Below are positions 6,230-27,885 of a stretch of DNA of 64,000 nucleotides, one piece after another. The DNA lies in assembly GCF_026586625.1 (NCBI RefSeq), contig NZ_JAODIW010000010.1, positions 1-64,000 of the forward strand, in the 5' to 3' direction. The stretch comes from Halobium salinum (lineage in GTDB: Archaea; Halobacteriota; Halobacteria; Halobacteriales; Haloferacaceae). A program made the translations under genes and the position numbers. A model generated the notes under the pieces. The model did not search any database, was not told the DNA's origin, and saw only the letters and a list, made by a program, of their open reading frames with translations. How positions within the stretch are numbered: the stretch's first letter is position 1; each line of letters opens with the position of its first letter.

Positions 6230-6241
6230 TCGTCCACACCG

Positions 6242-6490
6242 CCGCATCAGCGATTCGCGGGCGGACGGACTCGCCCGCGTCGTTGCGCTTCGAGGCTACA
6301 TCTCCGCGTCAGCGGTTCGCGGGCAGACGGACTCGCCCGCGTCGTCGCGCTTCGAGGCTACATCTCCGCGGCGGCGCGTCGCGGCGCCCGAAGGCGCCGC
6401 GTGCGCGGTCGCTCCGGGCTAGTCGTCTCCCACACCACCGCGTCAGCGAGACGAGCACGCCTGAACGCGTGCTCGTCGTGGCGCTCAGTC
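6242..6490 (-). repeat. Hairpin-repeat cluster A (four related copies)
   Basis: Read on the minus strand, directly after the DJ-1 stop codon (6485-6487), four units follow each other. Copy 1 (6441-6490) has stem 6453-6460/6467-6474. Copy 2 (6366-6424, degenerate) has a 9-bp stem 6380-6388/6393-6401 with a 4-base loop. Copies 3 (6304-6365) and 4 (6242-6303) form a tandem 62-bp repeat with stems 6318-6324/6335-6341 and 6256-6263/6272-6279. Copies 1, 3 and 4 share a left flank like GCGC-ACGACG and a right flank CGCTGACGCGG or close to it. The stem sequences differ between copies but remain self-complementary. The same family occurs at 26991-27200. Confidence 0.8.
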
Positions 6491-7084
6491 GTCGCCGACC
6501 GCCACCTCTGGCTCCCCGTGCTCGACGGTCGTCCCGAGCACGTCGAGGAACGCCGAAATCCACTCGGCGTTGTCGCTCCAGTCGCGGGCGGTGACGAGGT
6601 TGCGGTCGGTGGTGACACCGTCGACCCACGAACAGCCGGCGGCCTCGACCTCGGCGCGGACCGCCGGATACGAACTCATCTCGTACCCCTCCAGCACGTC
6701 GGCCGCGGCCAGAATCTGTGGGCCGTGGCAGGTCGTCGCCACCGGCTTCTCGGCCTTGAAGAAGTGCCGAACCACGTCGAGCACCTCGTCGTAGGTGCGG
6801 AGGTACTCGGGGGCGCGCCCGCCGGGGACGACGAGGCCGTCGTAGTCGGCGGGGTCGACCTCGTCGAAGGTGGCGTTCAGCGTGAAGTCGTGGCCGCGCT
6901 CCTCGAGGTAGGTCTGGTCGCCGCGGAAGTCGTGGACCGCGGTCTTCACCGAGTCGCCCTCGGACTTCTCGGGACAGACGGCGTGGACCTCGTGACCCAC
7001 CGCCTGTAGGGCCTGGAACGGAACCATAATCTCCGCGTCCTCGCCGAAGTCGCCGACGACCATCAGAAGCTTCTTTCCGGGCAT
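6485..7084 (-). CDS. DJ-1/PfpI family protein
   Basis: 199 aa, the full length of the family. The nucleophile elbow TTCHGPQ gives Cys119 followed by His120, and Glu15 (GDFGEDAE) is the conserved acid next to the cysteine. VVPGGRAPEYL supplies the Gly-rich loop. PfpI/YhbO/DJ-1 proteins act as cysteine peptidases, chaperones or glyoxalase/deglycase-type repair enzymes, so the precise activity is open. Own promoter: a TATA-like CGTTTAC (7113-7119 on the minus strand) lies about 32 bases before the ATG. Hairpin-repeat cluster A begins at its stop codon. Confidence 0.88.
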   Translation of the reverse strand: MPGKKLLMVVGDFGEDAEIMVPFQALQAVGHEVHAVCPEKSEGDSVKTAVHDFRGDQTYLEERGHDFTLNATFDEVDPADYDGLVVPGGRAPEYLRTYDEVLDVVRHFFKAEKPVATTCHGPQILAAADVLEGYEMSSYPAVRAEVEAAGCSWVDGVTTDRNLVTARDWSDNAEWISAFLDVLGTTVEHGEPEVAVGDD

Positions 7085-26107: not shown

Positions 26108-26148
26108 CCCCGACACATTTTTGAGTGCGTATCGGCTACGGAGTGGCG

Positions 26149-26928
26149 ATGACAGAGTTCTCCCAGAGCGACCTCGACGCGGACGAGCGGGTCGTCGACG
26201 CCGTCAGGACGCACGTCGCGGCACGCGAGGGGGTCCCGCCGAACGAACTCGTCTCGCCGTCGGCGGTCGTCGACGAGGCGTTCGTCGAACGGACCTTCCG
26301 GGGCTGTGAGGGCGCGGCGGTGAACGGACACGTCACGTTCGACTACGACGGGTACACGGTGACCGTCTCGACCGAGGGCCGGGTGACCATCGAGCCGCGG
26401 CCGGCGGTGGCGGCGGCCGACGACGAGGTGACCGCCGAGATGGTCCACGACCTGTTCACACGGAGCGGTCGGTGTGCCTTCGCCGCCCGGGAGGTCGCCT
26501 CGGTGTTCGATATCGGCGTCGACAGCGCCGTCGCGCGGCTCCGCGAACTCGGGACCGCGGGCGAGCTCGTCCACGTCACCGACGAGGCGGGCGCCGACGG
26601 GGTGTGGCGCGAGGAGCGCGAGCCGGTCGTGTTCGGCGAGGACGGCGGGTCGGTCGTCGCACTCGACACGAAGACGGCGAGCGTCGCCGAGGGTCCCGAC
26701 CGGCCCACGGCGCTCCGGGAGTTGGCCGACCGGCTCGACGACGCGAGCGGGATGGCCGAGTTCGCGGACGACGCTCCGGGCACGGCGACGCCTCAACGGA
26801 CGGCAGACCCCGAGGGGACGGCCGGAACGGTCGGCTCTTCGGCCGGCGGCGACGCCGGCGCCGACTCCCCGGTCCGGTCCGGGGCGACGGCGCAGACGGA
26901 CGACCGGACGTCGGGCGACGACGACTGA
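26149..26928 (+). CDS. HalOD1-domain protein with a second HTH-like domain
   Basis: 259 aa from the ATG at 26149. Residues about 8-80 match the haloarchaeal output domain HalOD1: a helical DERVVDAVRTHVAAREGV followed by the beta hairpin GHVTFDYDGYTVTVSTEG. Residues about 92-150 look like a winged helix, with AAREVASVFDIGVDSAVARL and then GELVHVTDE. The last 90 residues are acidic, Gly/Ala/Asp/Thr-rich and probably disordered. HalOD1 is usually attached to or encoded near signalling proteins; here it stands alone. Hairpin-repeat cluster B starts 62 bases after its stop. Confidence 0.75.
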   Translation: MTEFSQSDLDADERVVDAVRTHVAAREGVPPNELVSPSAVVDEAFVERTFRGCEGAAVNGHVTFDYDGYTVTVSTEGRVTIEPRPAVAAADDEVTAEMVHDLFTRSGRCAFAAREVASVFDIGVDSAVARLRELGTAGELVHVTDEAGADGVWREEREPVVFGEDGGSVVALDTKTASVAEGPDRPTALRELADRLDDASGMAEFADDAPGTATPQRTADPEGTAGTVGSSAGGDAGADSPVRSGATAQTDDRTSGDDD

Positions 26929-27351
26929 CGCGGTCGCGCCGCGAGCGACCCGTGTCGCGAGCACGCCCCACCGCGGCAGAGTGACGACGACCGAGCGCCA
27001 CGACGGCCGGCGTCTCGTCGCCGGTCGTCTCGCTGACGCGGGGGTGGAGACGATTCCGACCATCGAGCGCCACGACGGGCGCGGGTTTATCCGCGCCCAC
27101 ATCGCTGACGCGGGGGTTGGGACCACCGAGCGCCACGACGCCGAGCCGGTTCATCGGCTCGGTACTCGCTGAGGCGGGGGTGGGGCGACCGAGCACCATG
27201 TGAGCGGGGTCAGCGAGAGCCCCGTCCTCACGTCGCCCCGCGACGCGCCGAGACGGGAGGACGACAGACGGTCGAGGCCGCGCACGACCTCGGGTGTCGG
27301 CGCGAGTTTATGTTCTCAACACGCGTCCCTACCCCGCAGAGGAACTCGTTC
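26929..27351. other. 423-base intergenic region
   Basis: No gene on either strand looks real here. It contains the three hairpin repeats of cluster B (26991-27200). The promoter region of the lipoprotein gene follows, with a TATA-like AGTTTATG at 27306-27313. Confidence 0.6.
26991..27200 (+). repeat. Hairpin-repeat cluster B (three copies)
   Basis: Three units in tandem, about 70 bases apart, all in the orientation of the upstream HalOD1 gene. Each has a left flank GAGCGCCACGACG, an 8-bp stem, a 6-base loop, the complementary stem, and a right flank CGCTGACGCGGGGGT or close to it. Stems: copy 1 27005-27012/27019-27026 (one G-U pair), copy 2 27077-27084/27091-27098 (perfect, loop GTTTAT), copy 3 27141-27148/27155-27162 (perfect, loop GTTCAT). 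The three stems are unrelated in sequence. A fourth truncated left flank (CCGAGCACCA) occurs at about 27189. Confidence 0.85.
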
Positions 27352-27885
27352 ATGGAAGCGGACTTCCCCGTCGCCCGACGGGACGTTCTTCGGGCGGCCG
27401 GCGTCGCCGCGGTTGGGACGCTGGTCGGACTCGCGGGCTGTATCGACCTCGACGGACTGCTGAGTATCCCTGCGGTCACGTTCGTCAACGACACGTACGG
27501 CTACTCGCTCCGGTATCCGGAGGCGTGGACGGTCGACGGCGCCGACCCCGCGACCGTCGTGTTCGCTTCCGAGGCCGTCGACACATCACTCGTGGTGAAC
27601 GCGTCCGCGGCCGACGGGTCGTCGCTGGCCGGGCGGGTGGCCGTCGCACGCGAGTCGCTCGTCACCGGCGGGAGCCGACTGCTGACCGACGAGGCGACCT
27701 CGCTCGCGTCCGGCCAGGCGGCCCACGTCCTCGATTGGGAGAGCGAGACCGGCGAACAGTACGCGGCCCTCCTGACCGGGCGGGACGAGGTCTCGTTCCT
27801 CCTGTGGTACGTCCGCGGGTCGGACCCGTCGCTCGACGACGAGGCCGTCTGGCGGACGGTCAGTCGGTCGTTCGCGTTCTCCTGA
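27352..27885 (+). CDS. Lipoprotein with PsbP-like domain
   Basis: 177 aa from the ATG at 27352. A twin-arginine signal (VARRDVLRAAGVAAVG) and lipobox LAGC predict Tat export and lipid anchoring. The mature part begins with VTFVNDTYGYSLRYPEAWTV, the opening pattern of PsbP-like and related folds, and ends WRTVSRSFAFS. The ATG at 27310 is an alternative start that would add 14 residues before the signal. The role is unknown. Confidence 0.78.
   Translation: MEADFPVARRDVLRAAGVAAVGTLVGLAGCIDLDGLLSIPAVTFVNDTYGYSLRYPEAWTVDGADPATVVFASEAVDTSLVVNASAADGSSLAGRVAVARESLVTGGSRLLTDEATSLASGQAAHVLDWESETGEQYAALLTGRDEVSFLLWYVRGSDPSLDDEAVWRTVSRSFAFS

Follow-up and report, generated by a model that had tools for sequence, protein, structure and literature searches.

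The hairpin array that begins at a HalOD1-domain gene's stop codon in the window (the whole 64,000-nt stretch of Halobium salinum DNA analysed here) is probably a small non-autonomous mobile element, similar to REP and MITE sequences, that targets stop codons and regenerates them; its mobility we infer from sequence comparison. Dispersal after unrelated genes, a fixed register with the stop codon and a duplicated target together point first to such an element. The relevant features of the window are the following:

26125..26928, + strand: host gene with a HalOD1 domain (ORF list; PF18545, E=2.6e-11)
26920..26985, + strand: module C unit, first of the window array, on the HalOD1 stop codon
26986..27048, + strand: module A unit 1 (covariance model, 79.6 bits, E=5.1e-16)
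27058..27120, + strand: module A unit 2 (covariance model, 79 bits, E=7.0e-16)
27121..27184, + strand: module A unit 3 (covariance model, 58.5 bits, E=7.2e-11)
27185..27240, + strand: possible degenerate fourth unit (direct reading and fold; no covariance-model match)
6235..6493, - strand: cluster A (three module A units, one B-type unit), which begins at a DJ-1/PfpI gene's stop codon

The first-pass annotation had placed three tandem hairpin units at 26991-27200, on the coding strand downstream of the HalOD1 gene (the HTH part of which is that reader's own report). The units are real, with exact left flanks, near-exact right flanks and paired stems at 26986-27184, and their strand and position hold, but the interval was too short: the array runs from the stop codon at 26926-26928, where the host gene ends in GAC GAC GAC TGA, to approximately 27240. 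Its module C unit consists of a target copy, GACGACT, followed by GACGCGGTCGCGCCGCGAG, a short variable hairpin and then GAGCACGC..CACCGCGGCAGAG, and the same module follows stop codons at C13:253395, C13:924517 and C2:658668. In the three module A units, the common sequences CGCTGA[C/G]GCGGGGG and GAGCGCCACGACG enclose stems of differing sequence: an 11-bp stem with one G-U pair and loop TCTCGT in unit 1, a perfect 8-bp stem with loop GTTTAT in unit 2, and a perfect 8-bp stem plus a closing G-U with loop GTTCAT in unit 3. Positions 26993, 27065 and 27128 each carry an exact left flank GAGCGCCACGACG; the right flank CGCTGACGCGGGGG is present at 27031 and 27103, and a copy of it with a single change at 27167. 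The possible fourth unit comprises GCGACCGAGCACCA and then a hairpin formed by GTGAGCGGGG and CCCCGTCCTCAC. Cluster A, with loop GTTCAG, indeed belongs to the same family; the DJ-1/PfpI gene at its start ends in GGCGACGACTGA. Just 5′ of the gene downstream of the window array lies a TATA-like GAGTTTATG (27304-27353), suggesting that this gene may have its own promoter, located after the array.

A genome-wide covariance search, as the first-pass annotation had proposed, recovered the family. Run on the 4.46 Mb genome, a model built from ten copies gave 87 matches at E<=0.1 (76 of these at E<0.002), which cluster head to tail on six contigs with a period near 63 nt. Five weakly scoring intragenic matches (C2:254439, C2:267617, C11:467639, C13:289315 and C13:610278) were regarded as chance and removed before dissection, which yielded 74 units in 41 arrays. 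The earlier argument against chance is borne out as well, the bipartite pattern having 15 exact matches in the genome and none for a reversed control. Pairwise identity between copies is 85% in the 5′ flank and 76% in the 3′ flank, and falls in the stem arms to 44%, compared with 39% expected from composition. Nevertheless, the stems (7-11 bp) are perfect in 61 of the 74 units when G-U is counted, and 61 distinct left arms occur. The stems are independent, as first claimed, and they covary: 98.8% of cells are paired versus 69% in shuffles, and both partners differ in 7 of the 8 pairs; when the partner is slid by 1-3 columns in the ten-copy alignment, pairing drops to 25-53%. The loops almost all read YYYRT (T last in 49/58, R at position 4 in 56/58) and vary mostly by transitions. 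The arms are strand-asymmetric: across the 74 units left arms are T-poor (3%) yet contain A at 10%, and most mismatches are right-arm changes.

Two further modules were recognised, and arrays mix different modules. Module B has the form AGCCCGGAGCGACCGC-stem-CGCCGTCGCGGAGGTG and is present in six exact copies, while module C begins with GACGCGGTCGC and shares the grammar of module A. This common grammar of A, B and C can be written as (GACGAYT)[RA or AG][GCGNN...stem...N'N'CGC]GG-GGTG, to which module C conforms least strictly at its 3′ end. The arrays at C10:51232-51365 and C2:476312-476447 have in common an unusual spacer, GACGACCACCGGGACTGAG, as if one of the two had seeded the other. A protein-coding repeat was also considered (63 nt corresponds to 21 codons, with one frame open), but single-base differences in unit length shift the frames, which ruled it out.

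Upstream gene stops were located with a codon-usage gene finder, and 38 of the 41 arrays proved to keep a fixed register relative to the stop of the preceding gene on the same strand. This stop either overlaps or touches the first A unit, or lies 49-58 nt before it if a B or C module comes first. The 38 hosts are of unrelated function (DJ-1, MatE, BCCT, an SRP54-type GTPase, LeuA, UvrA and others), and the initial picture of a local structured element tied to the HalOD1 gene thus had to be given up in favour of a dispersed one. The exceptions to the register are C9:231420, C11:37166 and C11:1409359; the last of these (C11:1409359-1409423) is a hairpin module starting with GGAGCGCCGATGAACGGCG and ending in GGAGGTAGAGCC, located 95 nt past a stop, and is perhaps a fourth module type.

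Host stops are TGA for modules A and C, TAG for module B and TAA for one host. Since every unit opens with GA, AG or AA, a TGA, TAG or TAA is restored after the T of the host. Gene ends of the form GAYGAYT-stop are found in 30/38 hosts, compared with 9/174 background genes (Fisher p=2.6e-21), and 9 of the 12 genomic sites with GAYGAYT followed by GA, AG or AA are in stop-codon context. As this motif occurs almost only at stops, a sequence-specific target alone would yield docking on stop codons. However, eight arrays at gene ends of other sequence (TACGCGTAG, GGAGATTGA, GAAGACTGA and so on) lie at stops too.

The sequence between units copies the last 9-12 bases of the array's own host gene. 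Over offsets -12 to 0, we counted 204 matches versus 181.8 ± 6.2 after permutation among arrays (p=0.0004), and upstream of -12 the likeness between junction and host was gone (permutation p=0.48). A floating alignment was not equalled in any of 4000 permutations for 8-mers and 10-mers, and gave p=0.03 for 12-mers. Per-position z-scores of the junctions are modest, and for the single-unit arrays alone the duplication signal is marginal (n=9, p=0.05). Examples of host end and junction are TACGCGTAG/TACGCGTAG at C13:172550 and GAAGACTGAG/GAAGACTGAG at C11:141333. Statistically, the junction copies therefore resemble target-site duplications of about 9-10 nt, and their fixed length, together with the mixed modules, speaks against tandem duplication with random ends.

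These junctions also bear on whether the family might be neutral, REP-like DNA, in which template switching during replication recopies one arm from its partner, giving covariation without selection, while slippage enlarges the arrays. Stems do recur with different loops across loci (the stem GACGAGCACGC six times), imperfect stems could be intermediates of such rewriting, and the preference for G-U is weak. However, this account leaves unexplained how units reached about 40 stop codons, why the loop is conserved and why junctions are host-specific and bounded at about 10-12 nt, and on its own we consider it quite improbable. Neutral template switching can nonetheless coexist with the mobile-element explanation, as a source of stem diversity.

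Under that mobile-element explanation, a trans-acting enzyme would recognise the flanks and the shape of the hairpin, not the sequence of its stem. A unit would insert after the T of a gene end like GACGACT/RR, with duplication of some 9-10 bases, and its first bases, GA, AG or AA, would complete the stop codon, so that the host protein would be unchanged. Because the target copy would be regenerated, further units could insert at the same spot, building mixed A/B/C arrays. Stems would drift or be replaced with pairing retained, which would reflect either a role of the hairpin as the active substrate or repair of palindromes through template switching.

We found no larger autonomous copy with the element's ends, no transposon bounded by GAGCGCCACGACG and CACACCACCGCG, no transposase linked to the element, and no family match in plasmids and viral contigs. 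By eye, the ends GAGCGCCACGACG and CACACCACCGCG agree at about 7/11 positions; any terminal inverted repeats are weak at best. A hairpin near the ends, a fixed orientation and a target motif repeated at the 3′ end might suggest an element of IS200/IS605 type (RAYT-like or PATE-like) that a Y1 transposase mobilises as single-stranded DNA, and PATEs of 52 bp are known from Haloquadratum (PMC3119063). Yet IS200/IS605 TnpA (PF01797) had no matches in this 99%-complete genome, while a control search found it in Haloferax, and such elements duplicate no target (PMC3119063), whereas the junctions in the present arrays copy host ends. This origin is accordingly very improbable.

The distribution among relatives was assessed with the covariance model on 171 family genomes, which gave matches only in this genome and G021; a looser grammar added G091 and G062, and the fumC comparison added G090. 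Weaker matches in most relatives (E about 1e-3), as well as single conserved-site matches in genus g6, were dismissed as chance or unrelated, and the exact bipartite pattern was found in none of the other named genomes (own genome excluded). Outside this genome, only a few arrays were found, belonging to two further genera. Conserved structure in relatives, on which the first-pass annotation had let its proposal depend, was found in the genus of the congeneric G021, G090 and G091, all of which carry fumC arrays with different hairpins; the grammar also recurs in another genus, in units whose stem has three tiers and whose outer helix shows compensatory changes. Of about 40 other fumC and nearly 50 uvrA genes inspected, the majority ended in GACGACTGA and had no array: fumC arrays are restricted to this genome and the three congeneric species, and the uvrA array of G062 is missing from its congener G017. 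Because fumC and uvrA in most relatives carry GACGACTGA at their ends without an array, the target sites predate the arrays. An ancestral origin of the fumC and uvrA arrays was rejected: given the conserved GACGACTGA ends, separate insertions at a conserved target are the simpler assumption.

Two of these arrays hold shortened units. In the fumC array of G091, two 51-nt units without the main hairpin, identical except for the last base of the spacer, follow the hairpin units, which suggests that they may be deletion derivatives that still duplicate. The uvrA array of G062 contains a minimal 31-nt unit, GAGCGGTCGTCACCGCGAAGGTGGAACGATT, with the same ends and only a small GCGGT/ACCGC hairpin.

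The hairpins might instead be cis-acting RNA of the 3′ UTR, cotranscribed and acting in RNA stability, 3′-end formation or protein binding, with their spread being secondary. This would fit the covarying stems and conserved YYYRT loop, the compensatory changes in the outer helix of another genus, the invariable location on the coding strand at a stop, and a weak excess of G-U over A-C mismatches (20 vs 10, p=0.049); moreover, termination of transcription by a hairpin has been seen with a Haloferax reporter (PMC7237163). On the other hand, arrays follow only about 1% of genes, whose products have no common function, and nearly all relatives' fumC and uvrA genes lack them. The longest T-run after arrays is like background, without the T-run of an intrinsic terminator, the orientation of downstream genes is near the background mix, and the fold of the window array barely beats shuffles (z=-2.0). 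The diverse hosts, the lack of T-runs and the background-like neighbour orientation argue against a general terminator. Rfam 15 covariance models had no matches in the window and five array loci, and nothing indicates a self-cleaving RNA. A role in RNA is possible, in that loop conservation, coding-strand bias and the weak G-U excess could fit recognition of RNA or of single-stranded DNA, but as the primary explanation we hold it unlikely.

Small palindromic repeats are common in bacteria and, to our knowledge, little described in archaea. Integron attC sites similarly have conserved ends, a variable stem sequence, recognition by structure and a position at gene 3′ ends; in contrast, the present units have no GTTRRRY core and no cassettes, and are dispersed singly and in tandem without genes in between. 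Like REP sequences and BIMEs (GTAG and CGTC super-families), they are many-copy, small, dispersed extragenic palindromes lying mostly 3′ of genes, and GTAG REP ends often provide the TAG stop codon of a flanking ORF (PMC3733652). Unlike in REPs, however, the conserved sequence lies outside the hairpin, the stem is hypervariable, there is no RAYT and no unpaired tag (the consensus lacks GTAG, and CGTC occurs only within the paired arm of some copies), and the units are archaeal, show target-like duplications and are always arranged head-to-tail, REP dimers being for the most part inverted. Mycobacterial MIRUs, seemingly mobile short repeats that insert at start codons (PMC12548453), likewise occupy a codon boundary and disturb the gene only minimally, but contain an ORF coupled to the gene that follows and are not described there as hairpins, while here the stop of the previous gene is restored.

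Closest in host range are the small transposase-free mobile repeats of haloarchaea, namely the PATEs, MITEs and SMRs of Haloquadratum walsbyi, of which some measure only 52 bp and contain a palindrome (PMC3119063). PATEs originate from the ends of IS605 and leave the target unduplicated, in contrast to the junctions of the present arrays, which copy host ends (p=0.0004); MITEs are bounded by terminal inverted repeats, and target-site duplication is seen here statistically. Neither PATEs nor MITEs are described there as starting at stop codons or as forming tandem arrays with changing stems. As far as these sources extend, none of the REP, MIRU and Haloquadratum repeats combines conserved flanks around hypervariable stems, head-to-tail growth and a stop register. 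A search of the openly available literature returned no description of such a family, and it is filed with the small mobile palindromic repeats as a variant, being a member of neither REP nor PATE.

The shared flanks and unrelated paired stems of the copies might even define a new class, a stop-codon-targeting mobile hairpin whose stem is renewed on copying, with fold-back synthesis or RNA-templated insertion as conceivable routes, although we give this little probability. A repeat that docks on stop codons and restores them while swapping its stem would show how an element can multiply within a dense genome while costing next to nothing, and the family offers a handle for finding its enzyme. 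It also serves as a warning that covariation in dispersed hairpins need not imply a riboregulator.
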